DNA of 64,000 nucleotides from Spinacia oleracea. Taxonomy: Eukaryota > Streptophyta > Magnoliopsida > Caryophyllales > Amaranthaceae. Shown one piece after another: positions 26,264 through 58,808 of this stretch. Position numbers and translations under genes: made by a program. The notes beneath the pieces were generated by a model. The model did no database searches. It worked only from the letters and a program-made list of their open reading frames with translations, and was not told the origin of the DNA. How positions within the stretch are numbered: position 1 is the stretch's first letter; each line of letters opens with the position of its first letter. The stretch lies in contig NC_079488.1 in the NCBI RefSeq assembly GCF_020520425.1, forward strand, positions 90,811,285-90,875,284, given 5' to 3'.

Positions 26264-26354
26264 GATAAGGTGTTTGGGCCGAATGCGACAACGGAGGAGG
26301 TTTACGATATTGCTGCTCGGCCTATTGTGAAATATTTAATGGATGGTGTTAATG
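26264..26354 (+). pseudogene. Kinesin-7 motor fragment, exon A
   Basis: The open frame reads DKVFGPNATTEEVYDIAARP and then IVKYLMDGVN, ending at a GT donor (26355). This matches the start of plant kinesin-7 motor domains, where DxVFGP..TT..VYD.AA and EGVNGTVFAYG precede the ATP-binding loop. The expected upstream beta strands (TVRFRP..) are missing and the sequence before 26264 does not fit, so the copy is truncated. The next exon starts at 26490 after a 135-base intron. All downstream motor and stalk exons are absent from the window. Confidence 0.8.
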
Positions 26355-26489
26355 GTATGAATTGTATTATTCTTGATTAGAACGAGATTTGTTCAATGAA
26401 ATGGATTTACAGTTTTTATTTTATGTATGATCTTTTAAAATTTCTTTATTGAATGTTAGTGATATTGAAATGCAATGTTGATCATGTAG

Positions 26490-26506
26490 GAACGGGGTTT
26501 GCTTAT
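26490..26506 (+). pseudogene. Kinesin-7 fragment, exon B left piece
   Basis: After an AG acceptor the frame continues G-T-G-F-A-Y, equivalent to GTVFAY, and is then broken by the Tat-type retrotransposon. The last five bases, CTTAT (26502-26506), recur at 47023-47027 beyond the transposon as its target duplication; the exon resumes at 47028. Confidence 0.8.
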
Positions 26507-27026
26507 TGTTGTGGGAACTTTTACGGTGCTGATGTGGCACGCGCTCCTCGGAGGTATCAAGTATGACTTGGCACGAACTTCTGGCAACCTGCAAAACAAG
26601 AATATTCCCGTAGGAATATTCCCTCCGATGCTTAAGTAAGTATAAGCTAGAGAGATAAGTAATTTGTAGAGAGAAGGCAGAGCAAAGATAAGTTTTTTGT
26701 AGTTGGGCAAGAATTGAATACCCTTTTACCTTGGGATCTGAGCTATTTATAGTGCTAGGGTTCCTTGGGGACTGCACCCTCAACCCTAACTATGGGACAC
26801 GTGCCCCTTGGGGATTTAAGACACGTGGCCTTTGGCCTGCAATGATGGGCCTCCCATATTTGGACCGGCTTTTAAAGACAATGGGCTTTGCCCAATGGGG
26901 CTCTGTCTTTATTCTGGTGAAGTAGCAGGACTTTGGGCCTTCTTTCCAGGCCTGGGCCCATCTGATCAGTATGAGTTGTAGGCTGCCTCTTTGGGCTTTG
27001 TGGGAGATTTGTTCAAGCCCACATCA
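26507..27026 (-). repeat. 3' LTR of the Tat-type element
   Basis: 520 bp, TG..CA ends in sense. On the minus strand CTATAAATAG-type TATA sequence (complement of 26743-26751) marks the promoter. Nearly identical to the other LTR. Confidence 0.9.
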
Positions 27027-27038
27027 TTTGCCCCTCAT
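27027..27038 (-). promoter_or_regulatory. Polypurine tract of the Tat-type element
   Basis: Directly next to the 3' LTR, the minus strand reads ATGAGGGGCAAA, the plus-strand primer site used in reverse transcription. Confidence 0.75.
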
Positions 27039-27128
27039 GAGGAGTGAAAACAGACGTTAGTTTTCACTGCTCTTGGAGTATCCAACAAGGTGATGACGCG
27101 TGGCAGGGGTAATCATTTCTTACCCCTC

Positions 27129-27136
27129 TATAAATA
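27129..27136 (+). promoter_or_regulatory. TATA box of the antisense ORF
   Basis: TATAAATA on the plus strand about 100 bp inside the element and some 190 bp upstream of a clean donor (CAG|GTAAAG at 27319). It is placed to drive the plus-strand ORF that starts at 27489, opposite to gag-pol transcription. Confidence 0.55.
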
Positions 27137-27488
27137 AGTGGCCAGTTTGAGTGATTTTCCCCCTCATTTCCAGTGATCACTTGAGAGCAAATAGGAGAAA
27201 GCGATTTCCGGCGTCTTATATCCACCCATATCCACCGTAGCACCGCCACGATCTTCAAAATCGTGTTCTTGCAGTTCTTCATCCAAGTTCTTTCACAAAC
27301 TCCCTTTTGATTTATCAGGTAAAGGTTTTCTTTGGAAAAATGTGTTTGTTAATTTTGATTCTTCCAAATTTTCTTCTTAGTCTTGCATGGGTCTCGTCAA
27401 ACTGAAGGCGTCATCTTGTCCCTTTAACGTCTTCTGTTTTCAAGTTTGTCCCTGTTTTGAGGCAAGTCTTGGCTTGTTGCAGGTTTTA

Positions 27489-29802
27489 ATGGCGCGAATA
27501 GAAGACGAGGAGCAGTTTGAAGGAGAATCCTCTTCTCCTATAGAGGACGTCCCAGAAAGCACCGATGCCGCGCCGGCTAGTACGTCAGGTGGGGAGGAAG
27601 GCCATCTTCATCACAGCGCCATCTTCACACTTCAGACGTGGCTGAATTTCCTCACTCTAGAGGGGAAAGCCTATGGGGCGTCTCTGAATCTAGGTTCGGA
27701 GTATAAATTCCGCATGCCGGCTGGCATGGACTGCACCAGCTTTGGACTGGTGAAAGGAGAGTTCGCCGTTTACGGCTCGTTTTTGAAGCTGGGTATGAGA
27801 TTCCCCCCTCACCCCTTTGTGGTGGAGTTGCTGGACAGCTTCAATATTGGCCTGTGCCAAATGTCTCCGGACTCCTGGGCGGGTGTGTTTGGCTATATTG
27901 CTCGCTGCGAGCTTGCCGGCATCACCCCTTCTCTTCCGGCGTTCCTAAGAATCGCCTCTATGTCCCAAGTTTCGAAAGCCGCCGCGGGCTGGCTGATTCT
28001 TACATACAAAGGGGCCTATCGGACGGTGATGGGGAAGGCGTCTAAATGGCATCACTGGAGGAAGAAGTGGGTGGTTATCAAAACCACCAATCTGGAGATG
28101 TGTGAGAGGATGAGCCGCTGGAACGCCAAGCCCAACTTTGTTGGGAAAGGTGCTTCTTTACCTCCCATCTCCGCCGAGCTCTGGGAGCGGATCTCGTCGC
28201 TGTTCCTGGTCAAGCCGCTCGTCATCAAGGACAAGACGACCTACATACCCGAGGGGTGGTTGCCTCATCTGAATCAACTGAGCAATCCCACTTTCCTCTC
28301 GGCTGTAGGCCTGTGTCCGTATATGCCGAGAGGTAATGTATCTATACTTTCCATTCTTCTGTTTAATCAAAACCGCACTAATGTCTTTATTTCGTTTTGT
28401 CAGACGAGGCCATGGGTCAGCTGGATGATGCCTCCAAAGGCCAAATGGACAGACCGTCTTGGTTGGCGAAGGTACTCGATGCCAGTACCTTCAGAGCTTG
28501 GAAGCGTCAGTAGGCAGCCGAGCAAGCCATTCATGAGCAAATGGCTCCCCCTCCTGCTGAGGAGGAGAAGGTATTGATTAAATCTTCAGACGTGATTTCC
28601 TTTGTTGTTTACAACTTGTTTTTATTCATCATCATTTTTTTTTTTTTTTTTTGTTTTTTTTTAGAAGACGAGGAAGGCGAGCACGGACGCAGCTCCTACT
28701 TCCAAACGTAGGGCTGGCGGCACAGGGAAACCCGTCTTCAAGTCAGTTACGTCGAAGGCTTCTAAGGGGTTTGTCGTCCCCAAGGCTGCATCTGCTTCTC
28801 CTAGCTTGGAGAAAACTGGAGGGACAACTGATCCTCTTGCGGGGATTCCTGAAGTCGTCCGCCGCAACATCCCTCTGAGGGCGGCGGAGAGAGCTAGGAA
28901 TTCCGGGGGTAAGTTTTACTCCAACATCGTAACCACCTGCCGTTCCTCGTCTAGCAGTTCTATAGTTTCCCCCAGGGATTCTAAGGCCGTTGTTTTTCCC
29001 ATAGAAATTCCCGATCCTCAGAAAGACATAGATGCTGAATTGGATCAGATCCCTTCTTCAGGCGGGTTCAATTCTCATGACCGTAGGAAGATAATGACGC
29101 TGATGCGCAGTGCCATTCCTCCCCAATATGTTGAAACTCTTCCTGAGGCGGCCGAGAATATGCTTCCCGCCATGCAGTCCTCGGCGCTGGACGTAAGTTT
29201 CGTTATACCTTTATTTTTACACACTCGTTTCTTTTGTTTGACTTACTATTTTTGCGCAGATGTTCATTCTGCTGGACTCGCTGAAAAAGTGGCGCACTGC
29301 TTTGGTGCATGAAGAAGCTCGTCACCGTCTTCTGGCCAGTCAGTGTGGTGACCAGCATTTTGCTGCACTGGAGAAGCTTCGCTTAGACAGGCGGGAACAG
29401 ATTGACGCTGTGACTACCGCCCTGGCCTCTCAAAATGCTGAGAACACAACTCGTCTCCTGCATATTGATCAGAACTTTTCTGAAATGGAGGATCTTTCCA
29501 AGAAGATAAAGGAGAAAGAGGCTGAGTTTTCTCGTCTGGAGACTCAGTTTAAAGAGTTGGAGGTTCAGCTGGAGGCGGCTAGCAAGGAAGTCGCTTCGTC
29601 ACAGAGCGTCCTCGACCAGTCGGCCATGCTGGGTGAGATATCGATCCGAAGGGGTATGGAGCTTGCATGGAATGCTGAATTTGCAAGAGAACGTCCCTTC
29701 AGCTGGTTTGAGAAGTTTCTCACCTATCAGATTGAGGTGGAGAAGGCTCAAAGGGAAGGACGCACCCCTCCTGAGTTCGTGCCCAGCGAGGATGAGGAAT
29801 GA
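27489..29802 (+). CDS. Antisense ORF of the Tat element (gypsy-type transposon domain)
   Basis: Four exons are inferred from splice signals: 27489-28332, 28404-28570, 28665-29192 and 29260-29802, joining in frame. The N-terminal half has MRFPPHPFVVELLDSFNIGL and SWAGVFGYIARCELAGITPS, matching the plant 'putative gypsy type transposon' domain (Pfam PF04195). Exon 3 is basic and Ser-rich; exon 4 is an alpha-helical, Glu/Lys/Gln-rich coiled coil ending in EDEE. The ORF lies between pol and the 3' LTR on the opposite strand, as reported for Tat elements; its function is unknown. One stop (TAG, 28511-28513) interrupts exon 2, so this copy is probably inactive. The start is uncertain: an in-frame ATG at 27387 exists, but the AG before 27483 suggests a 5' leader intron and the ATG at 27489. 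Confidence 0.75.
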
Positions 29803-30328
29803 GTTCCTACGCGTCTTTGTTTTTATTAATGTGTTTTTGTTTTTTTGCACATGTTTTTTTGAGGCCATGCTTGGTGGCTTTTGTGCATAATTCTTGTAAT
29901 TATGGCTAACTTTTTGGGAATGACATGATGCCCTTTTGAACGTCTTACTGCTTTTTAGCTTTCATCATATTTTTTATGATTACGTCTGACGCCCCCAATT
30001 TGAGTCGTCAGATGTCCGCCCTGGTCTTTTTGCCAAGGTCTTTCGCTACTTTATATAGTTGTGTTAGGAATGTGTAACCCCTGTGTTCTAGGTGATCAGC
30101 CTAGTGAGGGTGCTAGTCTGGGCCACTTCTTAGGCCTTTAAACGACTAGTCTTTTTGGGAGAGCATTAGTTTGCATTTCTCCGAGAGTTTTGATGACATT
30201 CTTTTCACAAGGATTTCCCAGCAAGACCGGCTTGCAGTGAATTTTTCATTTAATGTTTAAAACATGCTACACGGTGCGTCTAGGCTCTAGACGTCTTTAC
30301 AATGCATATAATCTAGACAAGTGTCAAT
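29803..30328. other. Spacer between pol and antisense ORF
   Basis: Non-coding. It separates the 3' ends of two converging reading frames: integrase on the minus strand and the antisense ORF on the plus strand. Contains T-rich sequence that could serve as polyadenylation region for the plus-strand transcript. Confidence 0.5.
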
Positions 30329-31828
30329 CTAGAAAAAGTACTTCTTGAGGTTATCCGCATTCCAAGTACGCAAAATCGGACGTCCCTGCATGTCTTGGAT
30401 CCGGTATGTTCCGTCTCGAACCTCCTCGTAAATCTCATACGGACCTTCCCAAGTAGGGGTGAGTTTCCCTTGTTCATTGGCGCGTCCGACGGCTTCCATT
30501 TTCCTAAGCACAAAATCTCCAACTTTAAGTATTCTTCTAGAAACCCTTTTGTTGTATTCCCTTGTCGTGCGGAGTTTGTATAGCTGCTGTCGTAGAGCCG
30601 CATTCCCTCTGGTTTCTGGTAAGAAATCCAAAGCCGCCTTCATCATTTCCCAATTGGCATCTTCATTAAACAACATGACGCGCAGGGTGGGTTCGCACAT
30701 TTCAATGGGTAGGACGGCTTCAGCCCCATAGGCTAACAAGAATGGTGTTTCTCCTGTGGAATTTTTTTCCGTGGTCCGTATAGACCATAAAACATTGGGT
30801 AACTCGTCGGCCCATAAACCCTTTGCCTCATCAAGCTTCTTCTTCATCCCTTCAGAGATAATCTTGTTGAATGCCTCTACTTGTCCGTTAGTTTGGGGGC
30901 GTCCTACTGATGCAAAACATGCTGTGATACCATGGTCGGCCAACCACTCTTCTAATTTGGGCGTCTTGAATTGTGGCCCATTGTCGAAGACGATAGACTA
31001 AGGCACGCCAAATCTTGTGATTATGTTTTTCCAGATGAATGCTCTCACATCCTGTGCTTTAGTGTTCTTTAAAGCCTCAGCTTCTACCCATTTAGTGAAG
31101 TAATCGACGGCTACTATTACATAACGCAGTCCTCCTGGCGCCGTCGTATAGGGGCCTAATAAGTCCATCCCCCATTTGGAAAAAGGTATAGGGCTGGTGA
31201 TTGGAGTTAGTTTCTGTGCTGGTCGTCGGATTAGGTGAGCAAATCGTTGGCATTTATCACAACGCTTGACCATATTGAGGGCGTCTTCTTTGAGAGTGGG
31301 CCAATAGTATCCGGTTCTTAAAGTTTTTTCGGCCAGGGCTCTCCCCCCTATGTGGGAGCTGCATAATCCCTGATGAAGATCTTCCAGTACCTCTTGCCCC
31401 TTCTCGGGGGTTACGCAGCGGAGAAGTGGCCGTGAGAAGGCTTTTTTGTATAGTGTTCCATTCCATATCTCAAACCATGTACATTTCTTTTGTAATCTTT
31501 CTGCCTGCTTGGGATCATCAGGGAGTACTCCATTCATTTTGAAGTTGACAATGTCATCCATCCAGGTGGCTGTTCGATCCAAGATGTCTATTCTCGAGGC
31601 GTCAATGCTTTTGGACTGTTTTACCTCCCAGAATACATGACGTGGCGTGTCGCAGGATGCTGAGCTTGCCAGTTTAGATAAAGCGTCTGCCTTGTTGTTT
31701 TCAGACCGGGGGATGTGTTTTACTTCAAAGTTAGACAGCTGTTGGGCTTCTTGGCGGACTTTTTCCAAATATCTTATCATGGCCTCGTCCTTAGCCTCAT
31801 ACTCTCCTTTGACCTGACTGACAATTAA
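30329..31828 (-). pseudogene. Tat pol: RNase H end and integrase
   Basis: Contains in order the end of the second RNase H module (EAKDEAMIRYLEKVRQEAQQ), the integrase HHCC zinc finger (LHQGLCSSHIGGRAL ... MVKRCDKCQ), and the catalytic core with Asp in KWGMDLLGPY, Asp in VFDNGPQF and Glu in NGQVEAFNK. The C-terminal domain ends WNADNLKKYFF. Integrase inserts the element cDNA into host DNA. One stop (TAG at 31000-30998) falls just before SIVFDNGPQF where a glutamine is expected. Otherwise the frame is intact over about 500 residues, so decay is slight. Confidence 0.88.
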
Positions 31829-32715
31829 TTACGAGTCAGACAAAACTAGGACGCCTGCTGCCCCTGCGGCTCTGCTCATCTGAATTCCACATATCAGGGC
31901 TTCGTATTCGGCTTCGTTGTTTGACGCCTGAAAGTTGAATCGCATTGCATATTCATAGATATCTCCTTCTGGTGAATCACAGATAATGCCGGCTCCTGAC
32001 CCGTTCTGAGTAGCAGAGCCGTCCACATGCACTATCCACTGAGTTTTTTCATTCTTCAAATAGGGTGGCTTGGTCAGTTCCGCGATGAAGTCAGCAAATG
32101 CCTGTCCCTTTATTACCTTCCTTGGTTCATACGAGATATCAAACGCGTGAAGCTCAATTGCCCAATTGAGCATTCTTCCTGACGCTTCAAGGTTGGTGAA
32201 AGGTCGCTTAAGCGGTTGGTCCGTGTATACTACCAATCGATGGGCCAGGAAATATGGACGAAGCTTCTTACTAGCCAAGAACAGAGCAAAACCAAAATTT
32301 TCAACCGTTGGATATTTGAGTTCAGCATTCTGCAACATGTGACTGACAAAGTACACAGGTAGTTGCGTTCTCTCCCTCTCTGTAAGCAAGACGGCGCTTA
32401 GCGCGTATTCTGAGATGGCAAGGTACAGATACAAAACTTCCCCCAAGAGAGGGCTGACCAGTCGTGGCAAGGTGTGCAGATGTTCTTTTAGGCGGAGGAA
32501 GGCAGCCTCAGCTTGCGTCGTCCATTCAAACTGGGTGCCCTTTTTGATGGTACCGAAAAAGTAGTGACACTTGTCTCCAGCTCTAGATAAGAATCGTCCC
32601 AAGGCGGCGAGACACCCAGTGAGGCGTTGCACGTCTTTAACCGTCTTTGGCGACGTCATATCAATGACCGCTTGCACTTTGTCCGGATTTGCTTCAATGC
32701 CCCTTTCTTCAATCA
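31829..32715 (-). pseudogene. Tat pol: RNase H modules
   Basis: Starts with the RT connection (DKVQAVIDMTSP, KTVKDVQRLTGCLAALGRF), continues through the first RNase H (ISEYALSAVL, LVVYTDQPLKR) and reaches the second, plant-type RNase H (WIVHVDGSATQNGSGAGI, NNEAEYEALI, LVLSDS). A doubled RNase H is a hallmark of the Tat lineage. A TAA stop (31831-31829) replaces a glutamine codon after LSDS, and at the upstream end a one-base loss near 32716 shifts the frame relative to RT. Confidence 0.85.
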
Positions 32716-33927
32716 GGAGCCAAGGAACTTGCTAGAAGATACCCCAAATATGCACTTCTTGGGATTGAGTCTCATCTGGTATGTCCTGATGGTTTCAAAG
32801 GTTTCTCTCAAGTCGTCAAGGTGATCCTTCTTCTGCTTGCTTTTTACAATCATGTCGTCAATATAGGATTCTATATTCCTCCCCAGCTGCTTTACTAAAA
32901 CTGTGTTTATCAACCGTTGAAAGGTAGCAGGGGCATTTTTTAAACCGAACGACATTACTTTGTAGCAGTACAATCCTTGTTCTGTGATGAAAGACGTCTT
33001 CTCCTGATCTTCGGGCCATAATGGAATTTGGTGGAATCCGGAGTAGGCGTCCATGAAGCTCATCATGGCATGTCCAGCGGTGGAGTCGACGAGTCGGTCT
33101 ATCTTCGGCAGTGGGAAGCTGTCTTTAGGGCATGCTTTATTGAGATCAGTGTAATCAACGCACATTCTCCACGTCTTATTGGGCTTGGGTACCAGGACTA
33201 CGTTGGCTACCCAGTCTAGGTACTGGCATGGGCGTATGAAGCCTGCATCCATTAGTTTCTTGACCTCGGCAGCGGCAGCCAAATTTCTTGCTTCTACATG
33301 ATTCCTTTTCTTTTGTCGTACTGGCTTCACAGTACTGTCCACATTCAACTTATGCACGGCCACCGTCGGGTCTATACCGGGCATCTCCTCTACCGTGAAG
33401 GCAAATATCTCCTTGTATTCTTGGAGTAGCTGCACTAATGCTGCTGACATGGGGTCGTCAGGGTGGACCCCAATGGGGACTGTTCGAGACGGATCCGCTA
33501 AGTCCAGAATTACATCATAAAGTGCTCCCACTGGCTCAGGTCGTCTTTCTGCATTGTGCTCTGTCGGTATTTCCCGGGTTTTTCGGCGACTCGCTGGAGG
33601 TTTAGTTTGTTCCTTTCCCTTTAGAGAAGCTCTCCAGGCCGTTGGCTCCAATGTCGACAAGTAACAATCCCTGGCCAACTGTTGATTTTCATAGAGAGAT
33701 CCAACGCGTCCGTTGCTTCCAACAAATTTTACCAATAGTAAATGAGGGACGATCACAGCTTTTAGAACGTTGAGTGTTGGACGACCAAGTATGATGTTGA
33801 ATGTGGTGAGATTTGCCACTATTATAAACCTGATGACAACTTCTTTGACTACTGGGGGAATTCCAAAAGAAACCGGCAGCAAAATGGAACCAATTGGACG
33901 AACGATGCTCCCCCCGAATCCTACCAA
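32713..33927 (-). pseudogene. Tat pol: end of protease linker and reverse transcriptase
   Basis: The frame opens VGFGGSIVRPIGS (after the protease), with FNIILGRPTLN further on. The RT palm and fingers follow: FIRPCQYLDWVANVVLVPKP, WRMCVDYTDLNKACPKDSFP, FMDAYSGFHQI, FGLKNAPATFQRLIN and the YIDD catalytic box at about residues 355-358 of this frame. It ends KKCIFGVSSSKFLGS, where a one-base deletion creates a stop. The upstream end is cut by the inserted gypsy element at 33928; the protease lies beyond it at 43196-43300. Confidence 0.88.
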
Positions 33928-34171
33928 TGCGATAGAAATTCGCGCTTTTTACCTGTTTTTATGGTGATTTTATACATGTTGATGTAAAGCAAATAGATTC
34001 TCCGCATAAGAAAAATGTGTTCTTGAGTAACACAAACAACTTTAAGTTGGCAAAAGAGTGCACATGAGCGGCACAGGTACTTCTCATGTAAGAATAAGTT
34101 GAAAACTTTTGATAAATGGGTGAATTTTCGTGTTAAGTTTCGGGACAAAACTTCTTTTAAGAGGGGTAGAT
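33928..34171 (+). repeat. Extra copy of 3' internal end, left of the LTR
   Basis: Nearly identical to 41630-41873. It begins TGCGATAGAAATT. In the right-hand copy the base just before this TG is the end of a purine tract (AAGAGGGGTAGAA), almost the same as the tract directly before the LTR (AAGAGGGGTAGAT). Confidence 0.9.
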
Positions 34172-36892
34172 TGTAATCCCCCGTAATTTTATAAATCCTA
34201 TTAATATATTTTAACGTATAGTTAATTATATTTAAATAGAATTCACGAATTTTAGAAATAAAAATGTAATTAATGAATATTTATTTTTATACGTTTAAAA
34301 CATTTCAACGATTTATGAAATTAAAATGATTTTAGAATTTTATGTTGAAAAGAAATCGAATTACGAAGCCGATTGAATTTAGGAAACGATCCTAATCAAT
34401 TTTGGATTGAAATCCTAGAACTAAATCCAAATTCTAGCCCAATTGGCAAAGCCCAAATAATAAGACCCAAAACACTTTACTCCTTTCCTTCTCTTTCAAT
34501 TCACGTAAAAAGCCAAAAACAAGAAACACCCAAAACCCCTTTCTCTCTCATCATTCACGTGAAGTTGCAAGCCCTCAAACCTCCTCCTTCATCCACCGCG
34601 CTAACCACCGTCGGACCACCGTTGCCTGCGCCACCGGTCCTCATACGCACGGTAATTCTTCTTCTCCTTCTCTCCCTTCGTTCTGTTCTTCTCTCTTTAT
34701 TTCATTGCTCGCTCCTCCTTAACCGTGGCCTGTTTCCAGCAACCACCGCAAAACCACCGACCACCAATGTGTCGCGCATCCACCGACGCTGGTTGCCCCT
34801 TTCTGGCCGGTGTTTGTTCTCCTCGCTCGTGCTTTGCTTCCCCTCTCGCGTCGCTGCAAGCCGCACCGCCTGCAGACCACCGCGCCGCCTGCCGACCTCC
34901 GCAACCGCCTGCCCGGCTGCCGCGCCGCCCTGCCGCCAGGCAGCCTTCACTCTTTCTCTCTTTTGGTTATTTCTAAACCCTTAAAACTAATTAATGTTTT
35001 AATTATGTTTTTATAATTCGATTTATGTTTCTTGAATTAAATTCATGATTCTTTTTATGATTTATTATGAATTTCGGATTTTATGTTTTGTAATAATTAT
35101 ATCATTAATTTTCAGATTATACGATTTGATTGAGATATGGTTTTAATTATTAAAGTATGAGTTTTAAAGGTTTTTATAGTTTTGAAACCATGGTAGGACG
35201 ATTGTGGATTATTAATATTATTGTTTCGATGTTCTAAGAACGTAGATTGGCCTTGGTGAAGTTTTAAATGAATTTACATTGCTGAAAATTTAAAGTACGA
35301 TGTTTGCAAAGAGTTTTCAAAGAATTTCAATCTTTAATTCAATAATTGTTATTCTAGGAAATCAAATATTCAATTTTTGATATTGGGGAATGTTCTAAAT
35401 ATGTTTAGGATGTGTTTAGAGTACGTTAGTGTTGCTGTAAATTATTAGGAATTGATTTGGGTACGTTTCTTGATTATTTTAGGCGGAGAATTCTCTTTAG
35501 GCGACTTTTGAAAGTGTTAAAGTGGCCTATCAGTTTGTTTTCACAAGGTACGTACATACCTGTGTGCTTGGAATGTGTGCTAATTGTTGAAACCATGTGG
35601 AATTTGTTGGTGAACTTGGTTGTGTTGAGATTGTTGTTGAACTTGGTTATGTTGAAATTGCATGTTTAATACTGTTGGACGGACATATTGAACCTATTGC
35701 ATTATGAGAATTATAACATGTTAGTATGGATGATTGATGCAAACATGTTTGGTTGGGAACACTAGATTACTTTGTATATATTGATTCAAATCGGTTGATT
35801 GTTGTTCCCTTTTAGCTTTTCACTACTTTATGAGGGCCGAGGACCTTGTTTAGTAAGTTGAAACCTTATACCCATATAGAGGGGGTTGATCAGTATCAAA
35901 GGAAAGGTTGGATTAAATTGGAATGAGTCTTGATTGATGTCTTTATGATCACTTACTTAATTCCAAGATAAAAACAGTTGTGAACGAATGTGGATTGTAT
36001 GCCTTATGTGATTGTTGAGTCATAACAGAGTCTCAATTTGTAAATCATGTAAAGTGAAACTGAGTGGCAATAGCTTTAGACTGTGCACGTCTAAAGTGAC
36101 GGACAAACAGGAGTTGGGGTTCATGGTGGTAGCCCATGGCCTTTTCTGGAACCGGATTGATCACCGTGTTCTATTTTTATTAAAACGTTCCTCGATATCG
36201 CAGGTCACTGAGGTTACGGAGTCGCGCCCGTACCTCGTCTTCCTTAGTGAAGACTTCTGGATGGACAACTCGGTCCATTGTCTATTTCAACTAAAATAAT
36301 ATTATTGCTAAAAGTCTAGCCTAGTCTAGTCTGGTCAAGTATGGTCGTCAAACTATCATGTTTTGTCTGCCTTTATTTGTGTTCATTAGTATCATGTTAG
36401 GATCGTTCGTTTAATAGAATCATGTTAGGATTATTATTGATTTAGTATGTAGTACTCAGCTTTGCTGATTACGTGCTTTTGCTTGTGCATGTTGATCATG
36501 GCTATGCCTTATTCATCCTGTGATGACCCAATCTTTGGTGAGCAGTCTCTAAGGATCAATAAGCATTGTCCATCTGCAGGTTTGAAGATGTTGCATCATT
36601 GGGATCGGGAATAGAGAGCTTGTATTTAGTTTTGATTTACTAAGTTGACTTGGGTTTGTTTAATTGGACTTTAAACTTGTCGTACTATTTATATTTCCTT
36701 ATTTTCGTTGGTTGATTTTTGGGACTAAACCTGTAATCGATTATTTATAAACCTAAAGTTAGTTTTATGTTTTCCGCTGCAAAATTCTGAATAAGCCGTT
36801 ACGTTTTCACACGGGCGATAATGCCTTGATAATTCTCTACGTTTTATACTAAAAGGTTATTTTAGAAAAGAAAGAATTGTCGGGGTGTTACA
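34172..36892 (+). repeat. 5' LTR, 2721 bp
   Basis: TGTAATCCCCC...GGGGTGTTACA. Full-length form; holds a GC-rich, C-rich segment at about 34560-34960 that is missing from the other LTR. Confidence 0.92.
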
Positions 36893-36894
36893 AA

Positions 36895-36910
36895 GTGGTA
36901 TCTAGAAGCT
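36895..36910 (+). promoter_or_regulatory. Primer-binding site (initiator tRNA-Met type)
   Basis: GTGGTATCTAGAAGC follows the LTR end by two bases; it differs slightly from the usual TGGTATCAGAGC by small insertions. Confidence 0.8.
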
Positions 36911-38640
36911 AAGGTTTTACTTTGATAAATTTTTAGGCGCCTAACTATCTAGTTATTTAAAATAAATTTCTTAAAAATCGAGCTTCTACGTATTATAGTG
37001 TTCAAAAATTGGTACTTTTTTTTGGGGGGGCAGATTTCCTTTTATCTTGTTTGAAAGTATATAATATTTCTTATTTAAGTTCGAAATCAAATTATTTATT
37101 CGAATTAAATTGACTTTCGAAATTTTTATTCTTTTTCTTATTATTTTTTATTCAAAAATGGAGTATAATTTTTTTAGAAGTTCAATTTTTTTTTTAAATT
37201 GTTTCAAGAGTTAGAATTCGTTATTTTTTAAAAAAAAATATATATAAATCTTCTTCGAATTAATAACTTTATTTTCGAATTTATTCGCTACGCATTTCCT
37301 TAATTTATTTTACTTAATTTATTTTATATTTTTATTCTATGTTATAATTTTATTATATTATCGTCCTTTTAATTTGTTATTTAAACTATTTCAATGCTTT
37401 AGTTTATGAGAGATGGGTAGTATAAGAAGGGCATATAAGATAGAATTACATGTGCATTAGTAGCTAGTTAATGCTAGCATAAGAAATTAATTGTTATGTA
37501 CGTGCAAGTGTTTATTGTTTAAATGTTGTAATTATATGTGCATAATAGAAATTGTTTGCTTCCACCAAACTTATTGTGTTATCGAATTTTGATTATGATT
37601 TGGTTGGGAAGTCATTAGTGAGACCTGGAATTGTTTATTTCAGAAATAAAATATTTCTTTCTAAGTATACCAACATAGGATCTCTCGAGAAGGATCGATA
37701 TAGAGATCACTGATATTTTTGTGAAGAAAGTGGTGTTTAGATGTGAATATCTTGCTAGGATTCAATAGCAACTCAATTGTATTAAGTGATCATGAGAATG
37801 AAATGGATTATGAGTCTGACATTAATAGTTACACCAGCTTTGAACGCACTATGCGTCATATATTAAGAACAGGAGATCATGATAGGGATGAGGAAGTCAT
37901 TCGTGAGTTTGACCGTGTTAGAGGGCATACTAGAGTTGATATTTATAATGTAGTGATACTGAGCCAGAAGAGGATGACCTCAGTCTCAAAGGCTACGAAG
38001 ATCCACAAGGCAGAGAAAACTAGCTTAATATTTTAATACCGAGGATGATGATGAATTTAAATACGAGTCCTTTTACTCTAGAAAGCTATAAGGAATGAAA
38101 GAACAAGATTGATAATATTTCCCTCTAAGATCGTTTCATTATTTATTTATGTTGGGAATAATGTGGGACAAATCGCCCAACGGTTGTTTAAATTTATTGC
38201 ATAGCGCTTTTATTTTATTTTGGGACAAGTACGTTATTATGGTTTAGAAATTGTTATTAATATTGTTTTGAGGAATAAAAGTTTCTTTTAGGAAATACAA
38301 GTTTCTTTTGAGGAATTAAAGTTAAATATTCAATTATCCAAGTGGTCAATGATTTAGTTTGGGCACGCGACGAGGAATAATTTCTTTTATTATTATTATT
38401 TGTGATGATTGCATTTGATTTGTTTCCCTCGATCGGATGTCCTTTATGTGAATGTCGTTCGCGAATGATCGAGGAGAATTATTTTGCAATGATTGTTGCA
38501 CCTTCGTAAATGATTTTATGTGAATATTGTTTATTGAGGCGACCTCCATGGTCAAATCAAATATTGCTTGATATAGAATGGCATATAAGTGATGTTTAGA
38601 ACCTAAGATAGAGTATATTAATTTCAGGTCGTGTTATAGA
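36911..38640 (+). other. Leader region of the Tekay-like element
   Basis: AT-rich 1.7-kb leader between primer site and gag. A 97-codon open frame at 37743-38036 is acidic/basic mixed and resembles nothing I know; it is probably chance or decayed sequence. Confidence 0.5.
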
Positions 38641-41629: not shown

Positions 41630-41873
41630 TGCGATAGAAATTCGCGCTTTTTACCTGTTTTTATGGTGATTTTATACATGTTGATGTAAAGCAAATAGAT
41701 TCTCCGCATAAGAAAAATGTGTTCTTGAGTAACACAAACAACTTTAAGTTGGAAAAAGAGTGCACATGAGCGGCACAGGTACTTCTCATGTAAGAATAAG
41801 TTGAAAACTTTTGATAAATGGGTGAATTTTCGTGTTAAGTTTCGGGACGAAACTTCTTTTAAGAGGGGTAGAT

Positions 41874-44170: not shown

Positions 44171-44181
44171 GACACTGTACC

Positions 44182-44199
44182 TCCCCACAGACGGCGCCA
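44182..44199 (-). promoter_or_regulatory. Primer-binding site of the Tat-type element
   Basis: Minus strand reads TGGCGCCGTCTGTGGGGA, two bases after the LTR. The first nine bases match the 3' end of plant tRNA-Asp, the rest diverges. Confidence 0.75.
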
Positions 44200-44201
44200 A
44201 A

Positions 44202-44718
44202 TGTTGTGGGAACTTTTACGGTGCTGATGTGGCACGCGCTCCTCGGAGGTATCAAGTATGACTTGGCACGAACTTCTGGCAACCTGCAAAACAAGAATAT
44301 TCCCGTAGGAATATTCCCTCCGATGCTTAAGTAAGTATAAGCTAGAGAGATAAGTAATTTGTAGAGAGAAGGCAGAGCAAAGATAAGTTTTTTGTAGTTG
44401 GGCAAGAATTGAATACCCTTTTACCTTGGGATCTGAGCTATTTATAGTGCTAGGGTTCCTTGGGGACTGCACCCTCAACCCTAACTATGGGACACGTGCC
44501 CCTTGGAGATTTAAGACACGTGGCCTTTGGCCTGCAATGATGGGCCTCCCATATTTGGACCGGCTTTTAAAGACAATGGGCTTTGCCCAATGGGGCTATG
44601 TCTTTATTCTGGTGAAGTAGCAGGACTTTGGCCTTCTTTCCAGGCTTGGGCCCATCTGATCAGTATGAGTCGTAGGCTGCCTCTTTGGGCTTTGTGGGAG
44701 ATTTGTTCAAGCCCACAT
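44202..44718 (-). repeat. 5' LTR of the Tat-type element (main part)
   Basis: Matches 26507-27026 almost base for base. Its last seven bases, CACATCA on the plus strand, lie at 47016-47022 because another element inserted here, duplicating CACAT. TATA sequence at 44438-44446 (minus). Confidence 0.9.
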
Positions 44719-47015
44719 TGTAAAATCCCGAATATTTTATGTAGTAAAGTTTGGTATATATTTTCGTTTTTAAAAAAAAAAAAATCTTTAATTAGCGTTT
44801 GAAATTAAAGTCACAAAGTTTTTCTAACTTAAGTTCCGGGAAAAACTTCTTTTAAAGAGGGTATATTTAATAATCTATATCTTTCTAATTTTAAGTTTCG
44901 GGACGAAACTTCTTTTAAGGGGGATAGATTGTAATACCCCAATATTTTATAATTTTGTAAAACATATTTTATAGTCAAACTATAATTATATCCGTTTTTA
45001 GCTAGTCTCTTTTAATATTTTCAGAAAGTTTAAAAACGTTATTTTAAAATTAGTAGGACTCTTATTACGAGCACCTATATATATTCCGTTAACCCTAATT
45101 ATTTTTAGAAAACCTTAGTGCAGCCGTTTTACATTGTAATCGTATGGAGTTGCGTATAAATTAAGAACCCATAATCATCTTTTTTTTTTTTGTTCGGTAA
45201 TTTGTGGAAAGTCAAACTCCAAATTTAGTGACCACATATTGAATCTCATAGGAAGATCATCATGTACGTACCTTCGTCAAAGATCAAAACAATATGTTGC
45301 GTGAATCCCTATCACCATATACCAACCATGATCTTTTAGCTTATGGATTTAAATTGATACGTTGTCGTCGAGATGTAGTGGGTAGGCGAGTCTTTATTGT
45401 TCTAATGCACGGTCTCGAATCCTTGGAAGGTAATCACGCACACCCAGTCTTTTCGAGTCATTTGTATAGTGTGAATTATTATTACTATGTGTAATCACGC
45501 TTAGTCCTTTCTAATTGTTCGTGTATATTATTAGTTGTAATCACACGCCCCTAGTCTATTAAGTTATTTATATATATTGATTATTATGTGTAATCACGAT
45601 TTAGAGTCACATGAGCATATTAGTCGTCAACTAAGCGTAATTGATTATATATTCTGCTTTGTTATAATGTGTGTTAAATTTCTATTGTGTTCAATTTACT
45701 AATATGCACGATTATCTATATTAGAATATAGTATTGGTTTTCTTATATGATGCATTTTATTATTGTCTTATTGATTGAAGGATCTATAGTAGCAGTAGAC
45801 ATGAATTTATCTATTTCGGTAGTATGGAAAGTATGAAAGATCGAAGATTTAGGCTAATTTTATGAGTTGAGTTGTATTATAGAGTATATCAATCATTGAA
45901 GACTTATATTATCATTTTTGGGTTACATTGAGATACTTTGGATGTTCGATTAGTAATAGTTTGGATGGATTAATATTTTCATTTGTGTATTCCTTCTGTC
46001 GCAATAGAGGAGTCAGATTATTATGGAGAATGAATGATATGGTTTTGGATCTTGTGCCGTTGTTGAGCAGTATATATATTTTAGAGACCCAGCGCGGGTT
46101 TTGATAAGATTAGGAGATCACGAGATCAAGGTTGAGAATGAATGTTATATACTTCGTATATTTTTAGTTTGAGGCTCGATGTTATAGACCTTAGTCCTTG
46201 GCATGTTGGTAGGGAGATGATAACCATTAGTAAAGGAGCAAGATACAATCTTTATTTTTCTTAATATCTCCAAAAGTGAGATTTAGTCCAAAAGTGGCCT
46301 TGACTCAGAGAGTCTTTTTAGTAGCTATTGAGAGTTTCAAGTTTTTATACTTGTTGGTTTATTTATTCGAATTACCCATGTCCAAGGTTAGGTATAGAAC
46401 AAAGAGCAAATATGGCACCTATTGGTTTGAGTACGTTTAGTAGAGGAAAAGATCATATCAATATATTTGAGGTTCATATGAAGAGAAGATTTATAGTTTC
46501 CGTATAGTATGGAGTTAGTTTTATTTTTGGGATCATACTTGAAATGTAGTTTCATACTACATTATTTACATGACACTTTATTACTCTATTTTAGTATGTT
46601 TCTGTTTGTAACGGGTGATTACTCAGCTGTTTGCTGACGTGTGTGTTTATTTGCTATGTGTGTTTGCGGCCATGTCTTTTTCTTATGGTGGCCCTGCGAC
46701 GATCCTTTTGGAATTTGTCCTCTATGGTGAGCAGTCAATATTAACTGGAGCAGATTGATCGTTAAAGATCGCAATTCAAGATGAAGGAGCTCAAGTGTTA
46801 TCGTATAGTCTTTTATGACAGTTTAATACTTTTCAGTTGTAAATAGACCACCTAGTAATCGAGTTGTAATAGTTTAAGTTTTGTAAGCCTTAGCACTTGA
46901 CAATGTGGTCAAGTGTGGCGGTGATGCCTCCGATTTAGGTGTAAGCTTCCGCAAATATTTATAAAGTATGTATTATTTCTTATTTATTTAAAGTTAGTAA
47001 ATCGGGGGTGTTACA
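44719..47015 (+). mobile_element. Internally deleted Ty3/gypsy element in the Tat LTR
   Basis: Flanked by perfect CACAT duplications (44714-44718, 47016-47020). It starts TGTAAAATCCCG, a shortened 5' LTR, then jumps to a 3' internal end with two purine-tract modules (ACTTCTTTTAAAGAGGGTA and ACTTCTTTTAAGGGGGATAGA). A 3' LTR follows at 44930-47015 (TGTAATACCCC...GGGTGTTACA). No coding sequence is left. A different family or subfamily from the element at 33928. Confidence 0.85.
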
Positions 47016-47027
47016 CACATCACTTAT

Positions 47028-47063
47028 GGTGTCACCAGTAGTCGAAAGGCGCACACAACGCAT
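47028..47063 (+). pseudogene. Kinesin-7 fragment, exon B right piece with broken P-loop
   Basis: After the second CTTAT copy the exon resumes in frame: G-V-T-S-S-R-K-A-H-T-T-H, then a GT donor. Kinesins have GVTSSGKTHTMH here, the ATP-binding P-loop. The invariant Gly is Arg and the Thr after Lys is Ala, so the captured copy could not bind ATP normally. Confidence 0.82.
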
Positions 47064-48686
<1,623 letters not shown>

Positions 48687-49035
48687 TTCTAGAGGACTTG
48701 GTAAAGCACTTGCTAGAGAATTTCTTCTTTCTGGAGACCGAGTGGTTGTTACTTCACCTGGACGTTGTATTTTGGAACTTGAGGGTCACCTTTCTTTTCT
48801 TTTTTTTGTTATGTCAAACTCACAGTGCGCTATCTTGAAGGCAGTGTTGATTTAGTGGATGCAACTGTCAAAGAGCTTGAAGAAAGTCTTAGGGAAATGA
48901 AAGTTGTAAATGGGAAAAAACAGAGATATGCATAAGTGGTAGGCATACCATGTGACGTTTTCAAATTTCAACCCTAATGACGTGAGCAAGTTAGCTGATT
49001 TTGCTGTAAATGAACTTGGTTCAGTTGATATTTGG
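48687..49035 (+). pseudogene. NYC1: Chlorophyll b reductase NYC1 fragment
   Basis: After a TTGCAG acceptor the frame reads SRGLGKALAREFLLSGDRVV and VTSPG, then a gap with a T-rich insert. It continues VDATVKELEESLREMKVV, a stop, VVGIPCDVF, and VSKLADFAVNELGSVDIW, ending at a GT donor exactly where NYC1 exons would end. The glycine-rich SRGLGKALA is the NADPH-binding motif of short-chain dehydrogenases, and the spacing fits NYC1, which reduces chlorophyll b in thylakoids during leaf senescence. Stops, frameshifts and lack of all other exons show a dead partial copy. Splice borders are preserved, so genomic DNA and not cDNA was copied. Confidence 0.82.
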
Positions 49036-51744
49036 GTGAGTAATGTGCTTTTTCTCCTAAGGAGTTCTATGCAACATCTATCACTTTAGTCTTTTCCTCA
49101 ACCTTCCTAATTTCAATTGAAGTTTCTTGGCCCTTGCATACGTAGTTCTATTATTATAGCAAGATAGTCGAGAATTTGAAATCAGCTAGATGCACGTTGA
49201 TATCATTATATAAGCACGAGCTGCATGACAACGACACATTGTTTTAAAGGATATATTTAAAGGACGTAGTAACTGGTAAGTGGGTGTCTGAGAAACATTA
49301 ACCCTATATTGGTTGTTTTCTATCTAAGTTTAAAAGGTCTAGCTGAATAAGCAACCATTGAGTCTTCAGCCAAGCTAGGCTATTACAACAATCAAGATTG
49401 ATTTCAGATGAGATATCTATTATCTGGTTAGCTACTCAATCCTGAACCCAGGAAGAGTTTCATTATGGAAGAGTTCCTTTCAGATGAAGTGGGGTCAAAT
49501 AAAATTGTAGTCACTGTGTCTTTCTATTAATGCCATGCACTGGAAACAAAATTGTTGGATATCATCCACTTTGTAAAGTTTCAAATATTGATTTTTCTCC
49601 TTTCATAATCTTTCTACACCACATGATCTTGAATTCTATTTTGGGTAGGCAGCAAATTTTATTGGATGTTTGCGCGATCTTCTTCTTTTGAATGTAAAAG
49701 TTACCTGCAAATGGTCATATAAGTTTGGCCAATACAAATGGCAGTATTTTGTTGGGTTATGTCATCTGTTTTCTTCTAAATTTGTTCTTCTAATTTTGCA
49801 ACTTCTGATTTGGGAAGTTGGAGTTCCTGTTTTTTTTTTTTTTTGGTGTAATGGATGAAGTTGAGGTGTTTACAGTAATTTGGTACTACCAACTTTTTAG
49901 CTGACTCTTTGAGACATGTTATCCATTTTTTTTTTTTGGAATTTGGTCAATCTGTTTGTCGCACTGAAATAAGGTAAGGGGAAAAGAAGGAAAAAGAAAA
50001 TTGTTTTGCAATCTTTATGGTTATCTGTATAAACTATAAACCAACTTGGTTGTCATAGATCTAAGAAAAACTATTATCAATATCTAGGTCTCATGGGTGT
50101 TGAGAATTTCGGGTATATTTTTATGCCTTCTGAATCCATAATATGTATAAGAACTTAGAAGCAATCTCCTACACTGAAAGAGCCCAGTCGCTCATTCTGC
50201 GATTTTAGGTCGTTAACTATACGTTAAATAATTTACTCTTTGGATTTCATATTTTTTTTGCTTTTTCTTGTAGACGTTCGGTTGATGAAATGGGTGACGA
50301 TTCTTTCTTTTCCTCTCTCGCCTGATCAGACCTATAAACTACAGAACTGGTAAATACTCTTAAACCCTTTCATTAATCTGTTTATTTATTTGTTTGAGTT
50401 TGAATTGAGTCTAACAAAGTTTATTTACCATGTCCAATATTGAAGTCCCAACTAATTAGGTATGGTATTTAGGGAGCTTTTGATTTTTCTCATTCTATAT
50501 TTAAGTTTGTTGAGATGGTCAAATTTGGTATAATTTGAGATAACTTGTTCCCTATGACCACAGGTTTGTTAGGAATTTTTCCTAAACTAATCTATATAAT
50601 TAACATATTAATTTAGGGTTCCTCCAGATTATATCAATTGTTGAAAAAAATATGCAGAAAGTTGAAAGGTAGCAAATGAGACGACTAAAGCATCGGTTTT
50701 GGCATTGAATTATGAGATTGGCGATTGGCTCAAAAAAGGGTGTGTTATTATCCTCAATTTTGGCTTGTAATGCTAATGAACTTGATTTTGATTGATTTGT
50801 GGGTTAAATATCATAATTTTTTTCTTGATTATGCTATTTGTTATAAGTTTATTTTTCGTGTATACGATTTGTTTGATCATGGAAAATGCGGAATTTTAAC
50901 ATAGAGGACATATATTTCCTTATGTACTAATTGTATTGCATAAGAAACTATGCTTATAAAACACGGTTGAATTTTCTATATATGTAACTAGAGAGAATAA
51001 GCTAGGATGACTTAACATGATTTTAGTAAAATAACCTTTATAATTGTAATAATCGAGAAAATCCGAGCACGATCCTTTCACTATTTTAAGAGATGTATAA
51101 CTTTTCCGCATATATGAAAATGGTACTTGTATATGTGAGTGTAGCTCTTGGTGAGAAGGAGAACTAATTATCATGATTTGTGTTAGAGTTGATATAGTTC
51201 CTGAGTAATGGCACTAACTTTTAGCCATTCTTGCTACGCGTTATGACTGAGCGATTTGACTGATATATAGATGATATATTATAATCGGAGCTAATGAATT
51301 AGGCTTGGTTTTCAGTGAACTATTCAGAAGTTCAACGATAAACCTATTATGGTGAAATCATGTTACTTAAAATAATTAGACAAACAAAGATAAACCCTGG
51401 AGTTTATGCATTTAATTGTCGAATAATGTGAAATTCAGGATCCTCTCTATAAGCTCTAAAGAGTAGGAGAGTTTATGGCTTTAAGCACCTTATATTAGAA
51501 AAACAAAGTTTTAATCCCAGTGTTTTAAGTTTTTGACTTCTCTCTCTGTTCTCCAGTCCTAACACCTACAGAGGAACATTTTAATAGAGTAAGATCCTTA
51601 AAGAACCAGTTTGTGTTGAACAATAATTAATTGGAATAAAAGGCAAGTATGTGTCAATCGATTACTTTTATCTTTATTAGGAACAAGGTAGTTTGTTGTC
51701 ACCCCTATTGGTGCTAACCTTAATCATTTATACTTATATTTCAG
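49036..51744. other. Non-coding, intron-like; possible small exons
   Basis: Low-GC, T-rich sequence. Two short stretches look exon-like (about 50273-50350, after TTGTAG and before GTAAAT; and about 50640-50750) but their translations match nothing I recognise. They may be leading exons of the next fragment or of another captured gene. Confidence 0.4.
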
Positions 51745-52156
51745 GTCCACTGCAAGTTTATGGGTAATGGTGGTGGTGATATGGATCCAAAAGATATAGA
51801 GTATGTCAAGAAGTGTTGATTTGTAGTTGCATATGGTATCTTCGATGGATACGATACACCATATCAGCTTAATAATATTAGTGCTCGGTCACAAAAGTTC
51901 TTTTGTTTTCTTATGGTGGTTGATGAGAATCTTTTTTCATCAAGAAAAACGTTTCTGTAAGAGTGGAAACTGATGGGGGTCATTGAGTGGGAGTTTGACA
52001 TCTTATTCTTCTGAAGCATCAACCATATGATGAACCCGGAAGAAATAGAAAGGTTCCAAAGATATTAGTAAACATGATGTTTCTAGAAGCATTGTACAAC
52101 ATCTGGATTGATGGTAAAGTGGAGCTAATACTTGATCCGTTACTTATGGTAGAGAG
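51745..52156 (+). pseudogene. DUF616 (TOD1/MUCI70-like) glycosyltransferase fragment
   Basis: Between AG (51744) and GT (52157) the frames read VHCKFMGNGGGDMDPKDIEY, VKKC, a stop, FVVAYGIFDGYDTPYQ, NISARSQKFFCFLMVVDE, a frameshift, KNVSVRVETDGGH, LILLKHQPYDEP, KVPKIL, and NIWIDGKVELILDPLLMVER. The pattern VHC..F, GIFDGYD..Q...IS, RRNGK(V)PK, YSIWIDGK and DP is typical of DUF616 proteins, a plant family of putative Golgi glycosyltransferases. Three stops and at least one frameshift make it a pseudogene, and neighbouring exons are missing. Confidence 0.82.
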
Positions 52157-54421
52157 GTAATATATTTTCTTACGATTTTGTCGTCTCATTCTCTAACACT
52201 CTCGGTCTCTCTTGCTTTCTGATATATAATTTCTTAATAAATGATAAAGAGTGATTGATCCAACAAACAGAAAAACAGAACTCCTTGCTTTAGTTTCTTT
52301 TGATGAGCAATCTCTGACTCTCTGCTACAACCTAAGAGAAAACAAGTTACTGGGGTTTTTATTTGAGTGATGTGAGGTTTGGCATTAGATATTTGATCCG
52401 CTGAGTTGTGATTTGTTTATTCTCTCTCTTTCACTTGGATGATCTGTTAGTTTATTCTCTCTCTTTCACTTGGATGATCTGTTAGCTCATGATACTATTC
52501 GACCAAAATATAGTAGAAGTTAAATTTAATGAATTTACTGAATTTTTCATAGTGTTCGAGAACGTTATTTTCAATAGCTCATGATACTATTTGTTGAGGC
52601 ATCTGACATAATTCCAACCATTGCATATAGTTAGCTATGGTCTGTTCCTTTCCAAAAATAAAATTGGGGTCTTTAGTAGTTTGTTTCCCCTTTAATTTTT
52701 GTTTTCTTGTTTGTTATGAAGTATTTCTTTTCAACAACAAATGTGATCCTCAATCGGAGGTTTAATCGAGCTTGTAGGAATTGATAGAGTTCTATGCAAT
52801 CTCCTTGGATGTATCTTGTAGAAGCACTCAGATTCTGTAATTGTAATTGAGCAGGTCAGTTGGTTTACCTGTGACCCCAAGCTTCATATTGAAAGGGAGC
52901 AGTTGATTAAAAGGGAACAGTGATGTTATCTGACATGTACGACAAAAATCACACACCCGCTGATTAATGAAAACTTGCATGGAGCTCCAACATATGGCGG
53001 GTGAGTTGAAGCTAGAGAACCTAGACACTGCCCTTCTATTGAAGATAAGGTAAAATTTGCAAATTAATATTTTCATGCAAACTGCACTCTTGTTATTCCA
53101 CCCCCTCCAAAGAAAAGAGCTAGCAAGTTGCTAGGTTTTCTTATAGATGGAGTTTCTATAGAGCTTGTAAGTGAACTGATCGAATAGGAACATGTTTCAA
53201 TTAGCGTATAGACTTATTCTCTCAATCCCTAATCCCATTAGTTGACGGTCACATGAAACTCGCCAGTTTATGCTTAATTTTCTTACTTTGTATGTTTATT
53301 AAAACTTTATAGTATCTTAAGCTCTAGGTAAGTGTGGGTAAGCTAGCAATTGACGATTACTTGTGCCGAATTCTAGAATTTAGATAGTGAGTAGGTAGTA
53401 TGCTGGTGTTGACTTGATGTTGACGAAGCTTCTTCCATGCTCGGTAAAATTCTAGAATTTAACAGTGAAGATGCTTTTGTTTATGGAAGTACGAGTATCA
53501 GAAATGAATTTTTTTCGTAATTGTATCTTTGCCTCTAATTTGTAAATTGTTTGCAAAGAAGCAGTGTTACATTCAATTATATTAAGATAGGTATATGAAG
53601 TTTCACCTTGAAGAGGCTGCAGTAATGCAGTATCCTCTTACCAACTAAGCGACCCCTATTCCAATACATTTATGCGGAGTAGTCCGGACTATAATGGGTT
53701 GTATTCTTTGAAGACTTTAGCTTTAGTGATCTCCTTGAAATTATTACTACGAGCAATATGTTGGATGAGAGGATTAGCCGAGGCGAGAGGGAATGAGAGT
53801 CATATTTTCCCTTTTTGCCCCATCCCGTCATGGTTGTTCATCCAACACTACAAATTTTTTACTTGCTTTAGATATGAATTGATATTATTAGGTTGTAGTC
53901 CGTATTAAGTTTGGTTAGCTACATTACTACTCAAAACAGCACTTGAAATCTGTTGTGACAACGCGATTTGGTTTGAATTAGTGGTGCTGTGATCTAATGC
54001 AATTTCCTCAAAAGTTAGTAGTTGCATTCATTTAGTGCCACAAGAATTTGGTTTAATTGTTGATTTTGTTTAATTATGGATGGTTTAATTGAATTGGAAT
54101 ATTTACTATTTCAACGTTTCTTTTCTGCTATTTTATTCGATTTTTGGTTGTTTTATTGTGGAAATAATTTTATATCTGTAGTTTTATCTGAGAATTTTGA
54201 TTTCTGACTTGCAGGAGTGCGCGAGTTTGCAAGAGTAATGTATATGGCAAGGTGGATTGGCGGACATCGTAGTCTGAAATATGTCTATATTTCTACCTTT
54301 CTTAGGGGGAGGGGGCTTTGCTAATTTTCATATTATATTCAGGTACAAGTTTTTTCAGTTCACGTCTCAGGTTTTAGGTTTAACTTGTGATATTTATTCC
54401 CTGAAGGTTCTTTTGTAATAG
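52157..54421. other. Non-coding stretch between DUF616 and GRXS15 fragments
   Basis: A direct repeat (TTTATTCTCTCTCTTTCACTT, two copies at about 52416-52475) and a region near 52850-53060 with some codon-like texture, but no recognisable protein. 54236-54310 could be a decayed first exon of the GRXS15 copy (it starts MYMARWIGG) but the match is too weak to call. Confidence 0.4.
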
Positions 54422-54786
54422 GTATCTGGCTTGTTCTACCAAAATGCAATGAAGTACTCAACTACTCCATCCAACGATCCTGACACACATAAGGATTTCA
54501 GGCCAAACCAGTAAGGCTAAGAGTGATCTTTCTGTCAAAGATATTGTTGAGCAGGTGATGTTTTTTCTTTATCCATGGTTCTTTATATAATGACTTTGGC
54601 GCATATGCCCTTCTCTTTAGCTCGGGATTGTATCTTTTTGCTTATGAATCTTATGGTGAATGCATCTTCAATCTTGGTATCTTCCAGACGTGAAGGACAA
54701 TTCAGTTATGATGTATATAAAGGGGATTCCCGAAATGCCTAGATGCGGTTTCAGCTCTTTTGCAGTGAGGGTACTGAAGGATTATA
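54422..54786 (+). pseudogene. GRXS15: Mitochondrial monothiol glutaredoxin GRXS15 fragment
   Basis: Two exons with preserved splice borders. The first, 54422-54554: VSGLFYQNAMKYST, NDPDTHKDF, then a one-base frameshift and SKAKSDLSVKDIVEQ. The second, 54688-54786: [20 protein letters not shown] and [17 protein letters not shown]15 has KG(V/I)P..P(Q/R)CGFS at this point, where the Cys of CGFS holds a glutathione-bound 2Fe-2S cluster in mitochondria. Here the CGFS Cys is kept, but the frameshift, a lost base at the second exon's start and absence of the last exons show a dead copy. An intact GRXS15 is expected elsewhere in the genome. Confidence 0.85.
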
Positions 54787-55829
54787 GTAAGTTTTTCAGT
54801 TTTGGTTGATTATTTGACTTTATCTGTTAGCAATTTGAGGCTCTTTCAAATGTTGGTAGAAACTTTTATAAGTTTAAGTTATCAACACAGCTGAGAGCTA
54901 TTTATATGTGTGGGATAGACATGGAGTAAAATACCCCCTTCCTCGTATATGGATTAGAGAGGATGGATTGGTGATGAAGCTACCCTGACCAAGCTAAGTA
55001 TTGACTGAGTTTTTGGTATTCTGTAAAAATTCTTGGCTTAAATTGTCCCCTGTCATCAGGTATAAGCTGAGATTTCGATTGTTCTATTTGCCAAAATTTA
55101 TGTGGGATCCTGTCGTGGTGTGATGTATTTGTAAATTTCTGTTATTATATCTCTTTATGATTCTTAATTTCTCAATCTTTTCTTACATGTATGATCATTA
55201 TATATCTTTTTATGTTGGCCTCTTCATGTGTCAGTAGTAACATTTGTGAGATTGAAGAAATATCAAAGGGAGATTAGTGCACGGGTTATGCATAATTATA
55301 TTTTTTTGCCTAAATTTTTCTCAAGTAGTAAAAAGTTTGTGCTAATTCCATGTCTTTTTTATACAGGCATCGATAGTGAAATTTCCTTGATATCCTAATC
55401 CTATTGCATCCTCCATATCAAGCAGAATCAGGGTGGAAGTTAAAAGTTGAAGTTATTTTGTTGTTAAAATCTCTCCTCTCTGTAATGTTTCGATTTGTTT
55501 AGGTTAAAATGAGTTTGTCTAAAGAGGTTGTGTTTTTCAAGATTTGTTGAATTATTGTATGTATATAATTTATTGATTATGTTTAGTGTTAAGAGTGATA
55601 CTTGTATGGTTGTACATGTTTCACTTGAAACTACGATGAAAATTTTAGTTTGGTTTATAGGAAATACAACGTATAAAATGGTTGTTAAACTTATAATTTT
55701 CAATGAAAAGTAGTGTTTTTTTCTTGTGACAACAAATATAGCAACTTTCAAAGTGTAATTGCTAAATTATGGCGGTTATAATTTCACAAAGTTTATTTTT
55801 GCTACATTGGGGGGACGGCCAACAACTAG
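54787..55829 (+). other. Tail of the captured region with Helitron-like 3' end
   Basis: Non-coding, T-rich. It finishes with TTGGGGGGACGGCCAACAACTAG followed by T (55807-55829 and 55830). The pieces TTGG and CCAA can pair around a G-rich loop, and CTAG|T a few bases later is the Helitron 3' arrangement. The hairpin is short, so this is suggestive only. No matching TC start was identified upstream. Confidence 0.35.
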
Positions 55830-58127: not shown

Positions 58128-58132
58128 TACTA

Positions 58133-58182
<50 letters not shown>

Positions 58183-58385
58183 TATTAATAGAAAATAGGA
58201 AATAGGAATAGATTTAGAAAATAATAACGATAACTAAAATAATTAAAATATAAAATTATAAAAACAAGGAAACCAAACAAATTACGAAATTAAGGTCTAA
58301 AAACAAAGAAAAATCACTAAGTACGCTAATTAAGCTACAAAATATAAAATAAATAAAGGTTAAAAATGAGAAAATTAGATAAATA
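58128..58385. other. AT-rich LTR-like stretch
   Basis: Contains an (ATA)n run (58136-58172) and long A-rich sequence; part of the presumed LTR of the surrounding insertion. No gene. Confidence 0.5.
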
Positions 58386-58729: not shown

Positions 58730-58773
58730 TATATAATAAAATAAGCTAGAAAAATACCTAAAAACTACCCTAG

Positions 58774-58793: not shown

Positions 58794-58808
58794 ATCAACT
58801 ACCCTTCC

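Follow-up and report, generated by a model that had tools for sequence, protein, structure and literature searches.

Maize Helitrons have TC and CTRR ends and enter between A and T (PMC3288121). According to the same account, maize helA Helitrons carry from 0 to 12 gene fragments, with a mean of 3 (Dong et al. 2011, PMC3288121), and its authors conclude that capture is stepwise. Pack-TYPE elements, including Pack-MULE and Pack-CACTA, can also contain several loci, as stated in a report on this group (PMC8903248).

The window analyzed here is a stretch of 64,000 nucleotides of Spinacia oleracea (contig NC_079488.1). It contains a gene-fragment cassette on the plus strand at 24967 (or 24985)..55829, a probable Helitron with A|TC and CTAG|T at composition breaks. 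Compared with what is described of the maize helA and helB Helitrons, the cassette is similar in that a single element holds several fragments of different genes, and in its TC/CTRR ends and A/T target. Unlike those elements as described, it possesses no convincing 3' hairpin, is buried in an LTR and is split by a Tat element. The cassette also differs from Pack-TYPE elements, as these are presented in the report above, since no terminal inverted repeats or target duplication of at least 5 bp were found. Given the maize Helitron range, a cassette of about 10 kb with five fragments is of an ordinary kind. No paper joining glutaredoxin, kinesin, Helitron and gene fragments was found in a literature search, which says little.

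Gene fragments in the cassette

The cassette was translated in frames with X at stop codons, and the translations were searched against Pfam and solved structures (PDB). Five gene pieces were found, all on the plus strand and within about 10 kb when the Tat element is not counted. Four of them, from kinesin, NYC1-like, DUF616 and glutaredoxin genes, had been listed in an earlier note on this DNA, and all four are present with readable splice borders and retained introns. The fifth, from MnmG/GidA, had been overlooked.

The kinesin motor fragment includes exon 1 at 26265..26354 (+), recognized by Pfam Kinesin (E=0.0023), by solved kinesins and by its AG/GT borders. Exon 2 is interrupted by the Tat element, with the left part at 26490..26506 (+) and the right part at 47028..47063 (+). 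Both parts are delimited by their sequence borders and by the exon that is restored without Tat, and the right part also by its structure match. When the exons are joined, the best solved-structure match is a kinesin-1 (E=1.7e-10), and CENP-E, a kinesin-7, ranks under the kinesin-1 structures with E=2.5e-7. A kinesin motor, as proposed in the earlier note, is thus confirmed, but its kinesin-7 sub-family name is an assumption that solved structures do not favour. The P-loop, located in the right part of exon 2, is altered and reads SSRKAHT, compared with SSGKTHT in the best solved kinesin.

A short-chain dehydrogenase (SDR) fragment with a broken frame and readable splice borders is located at 48687..49035 (+). 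It matches Pfam adh_short under the cut-off (E=0.007) and, with exons joined, solved SDR enzymes at best with E=5.2e-4; we take it to be NYC1-like. The TOD1/MUCI70 fragment at 51745..52156 (+) has an in-frame stop and a frame change, and its two halves match TOD1_MUCI70 (the Pfam family formerly called DUF616) above the cut-off, with E=8.1e-15 and 9.9e-17. The MnmG/GidA fragment at 52909..53049 (+) possesses two in-frame stops; it is supported by Pfam GIDA above the cut-off (E=2.3e-8) and by seven MnmG/GidA structures with E ranging from 1.7e-9 to 2.5e-8. A monothiol glutaredoxin, presumably GRXS15-like, is represented by exon a at 54422..54554 (+), with a broken frame and structure matches, and by exon b at 54688..54786 (+), which carries the CGFS motif and is found by both Pfam and structures. 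Its best solved relative gives E=1.1e-5 with the exons joined, and its Pfam match is under the cut-off (E=0.066). Overall, MUCI70 and MnmG lie above the Pfam curated cut-offs, and the single pieces of kinesin, SDR and glutaredoxin lie below. NYC1, GRXS15 and MnmG homologues act in plastids or mitochondria.

On the minus strand, where all three frames of 47016-56002 and of 24967-26506 were scanned with Pfam, no gene piece was found. Three candidate exons (25660-25810, 50610-50760 and 54870-55020) gave no family with Pfam in three plus frames each, and some cassette frames were without match in the PDB searches. Five further Pfam matches below their cut-offs were treated as chance: Arylesterase (E=0.19), adh_short_C2 (E=0.32), Ribosomal_L32e (E=0.087), TPR_Nup160_C (E=0.1) and NADHdh_A3 (E=0.015). 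A 52-bp stretch is present twice, at 25571-25621 and 54052-54103, with 92% identity (E=3e-13). The copies precede the kinesin and glutaredoxin pieces respectively, and perhaps one source was sampled twice.

Exon flanks show AG and GT borders, with the exception of the MnmG match start, which has no visible acceptor. Introns are retained between the exons of kinesin and between those of glutaredoxin, and therefore the fragments were captured from DNA rather than from spliced RNA. Each piece covers a small share of its Pfam profile, for example 30 of 327 positions for kinesin, about 143 of 314 for MUCI70 and 56 of 391 for GidA. The retained introns, the small family coverage and the shared strand of the five pieces in about 10 kb give good support to a capture, at the level of DNA, of fragments from several unrelated genes, in agreement with the multi-gene capture event suggested earlier.

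The fragments had also been described as partial and mutated, and this holds. Stops or frame changes are found in four of the five (SDR, MUCI70, MnmG and glutaredoxin). Together with the altered kinesin P-loop, these broken frames make it unlikely that a functional chimeric protein is made from the cassette today. It is also very doubtful that the sense-oriented cassette formerly yielded one long transcript affecting the five parent genes, for instance via small RNAs.

Nested insertions in a LINE

The cassette is part of a nest whose outermost layer is a LINE on the minus strand. The zf-RVT part of the LINE lies right of the insertion (Pfam, E=1.3e-18), whereas the part resembling RNase H lies left of it (Pfam RVT_3, E=7.9e-15). 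A 34,901-bp element on the minus strand at 23897..58797 is inserted between them, with TG...CA ends and flanks ATTAC/ACTAC, a 5-bp target duplication in which four of five positions match. A second, 706-bp element is located at 58809..59514 and is flanked by the 8-bp duplication ACCCTTCC; from its ends and the duplication length we take it to belong to the hAT superfamily. When both elements are removed and one copy of each duplication is kept, a single open LINE frame runs across the joint. The restored frame therefore fixes the border pairs of both elements, and the 34.9-kb insertion in a LINE reported in the earlier note is borne out.

Self-comparison revealed no terminal direct repeats in the outer element. 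A solo LTR most simply accounts for TG...CA ends and the 5-bp duplication in the absence of such repeats. The TG...CA ends, the duplication with one mismatch and the clean empty site all agree with the pattern of a solo LTR. The outer element is thus probably a minus-strand solo LTR that was later split by the cassette. Taken as a whole, the 34.9-kb insertion is not the capturing element; the cassette probably entered it later.

Several smaller features were observed in and around this element. A strong 8-bp hairpin (z -4.6) occurs at 58774-58793. It directly precedes the right end of the outer element, which is taken to be the start of the LTR. Within the outer element, the stretches 56717-58132 and 58380-58735 have inverted ends of about 30 bp and probably represent small inverted-repeat elements, with tandem repeats at 56893-57480 in the former. 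Beside the nest, 20836-21027 on the minus strand holds the beginning of a gene for iron-sulphur cluster assembly (Pfam Fe-S_biosyn, E=5e-5, under the cut-off). The 24-base end of the outer element had no match in a collection of viral contigs, and its first 1,304 bases had none in 72,556 plasmid records; plant DNA is not expected in either. A 19-base piece of the element did match one contig, whose remaining similarity to the window is at chance level, and this match was discarded.

The innermost large insertion is a gypsy-type LTR retrotransposon of 20,516 bp at 26507..47022, which itself holds further insertions. Its LTR pair, 26507-27024 and 44202-44718, is 99.0% identical, the 518 columns containing four mismatches and a single gap column, and a Pfam match to 'putative gypsy type transposon' (E=1.6e-8) lies in the element; the lineage label Tat is the name given in the earlier note. 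It is flanked by CTTAT, and removal of 26507-47022 restores one continuous kinesin exon, so the 20.5-kb insertion called Tat is upheld. The cassette is older than the Tat insertion, because Tat splits the captured kinesin exon. From the LTR differences and plant substitution rates, the Tat insertion is dated roughly within the last million years. A solo-LTR-like element with the duplication CACAT occupies 44719-47015 in the right Tat LTR. A further LTR element was noted inside Tat at roughly 33926-43195. An insertion at about 34501-35894 interrupts its left LTR; after joining, its LTRs differ by nine mismatches and five gap columns in 1,573.

Borders and likely carrier of the cassette

The maximum likelihood position of the left composition break is after 24984 (support interval 24966-24986) and that of the right break is after 55835 (support interval 55808-55838). 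The purine content is 80% at 24905-24974 and 87% at 55830-55899, outside the borders, and about 50% in the adjoining ends of the cassette. A|TC occurs at 24966/24967 and again at 24984/24985, which leaves the 5' end ambiguous, and CTAG|T occurs at 55829/55830. Both motifs together were found in 2.8% of 20,000 random intervals of equal sizes; as the purine tracts had been noticed before the stretches to be analysed for breaks were picked, the agreement of the motifs is suggestive only. The right end at 55829 is that of the earlier note. The start, however, lies at about 24967-24985, upstream of the 26264 given before. Without Tat, the cassette measures 10,342 or 10,324 bp.

These borders would provide the ends of a Helitron, with a 5' TC at 24967 (or 24985) and a 3' CTAG ending at 55829, although the motifs are short and their joint chance is 2.8%. 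If the borders are correct, an A precedes TC and a T follows CTAG, as in an A/T target without duplication. The palindrome of 16-20 nt that Helitrons carry some 10-12 bases upstream of their 3' end was not found; a 4-bp stem is present with z -0.05 and -0.12. In folding, the hairpin at 55829 was equalled or beaten by 80 of 200 shuffles. Among 476 CTRR|T sites, 55829 ranks 92 by stem and 119 by energy. The hairpin, which the earlier note had offered for a Helitron, was dropped as no better than chance. No Rep/helicase gene was found in the frames scanned, which is expected of a non-autonomous copy, yet lends no support either. Near the 5' border, at 25016-25038, a perfect 9-bp hairpin (z -3.8) is better than the 3' one and could be the cassette's or the LTR's. 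A Helitron in reversed orientation using this hairpin was rejected, as no CTRR was seen at the proper distance behind it.

We consider it somewhat probable that the cassette is a non-autonomous Helitron, old and decayed, which bears DNA of at least five unrelated nuclear genes. The carrier named in the earlier note keeps the CTAG|T, the A|TC, the A/T target and the lack of a fitting inverted-repeat rival on its side, but not the 3' hairpin. The genomic DNA of these genes would have been taken up stepwise and with its introns. The Helitron would then have entered by rolling-circle insertion, in plus orientation, at an A/T site in a purine-rich part of the solo LTR that itself lay within the LINE. 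The gypsy-type (Tat) element inserted into the captured kinesin exon thereafter.

Other origins and what the nest records

Patches copied from several genes during double-strand break repair in the LTR (filler DNA, template switching) would need no transposon, and we regard such an origin as unlikely. No transposon end is certain here, and repeated copying of one source could yield the leader-like stretch at 25571-25621 again at 54052-54103. Filler DNA is, however, normally smaller and less ordered than about 10 kb from five genes in one orientation, and the terminal bases agree with a Helitron. Capture by Pack-MULE, Pack-CACTA or another inverted-repeat transposon with since-decayed ends is quite unlikely, although Pack-TYPE elements likewise carry genic DNA of several loci (PMC8903248). 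There is a CACTA at 25018 and a TAGTG at both 55584 and 55711, but as inverted repeats the borders resemble each other no more than expected by chance, their score being reached by 65 of 200 shuffles. The 25 weak 12-base repeat pairs were exceeded in 4 of 30 random controls, and a duplication of at least 5 bp accompanies none of the 25, though very decayed ends could escape.

Two explanations place the gene pieces in a larger unit. The TG...CA ends and the 5-bp duplication would also suit one large LTR-type element of 34.9 kb that was itself the carrier. This is very improbable, as terminal direct repeats were not found in self-comparison, the retained sense introns are at odds with passage through spliced RNA and the composition breaks inside are sharp. 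Least probable is that a region with the five genes as neighbours underwent segmental duplication, in view of the small part of the family profile covered by each piece and the presence of all five within about 10 kb.

As a probable Helitron, the cassette adds another multi-gene capture and leaves the knowledge of the capture mechanism unchanged. The nest as a whole is a clean, ordered record of a LINE, a probable solo LTR, a gene-capturing element, a Tat element and further LTR elements, in which two layers have borders proven by restored reading frames.
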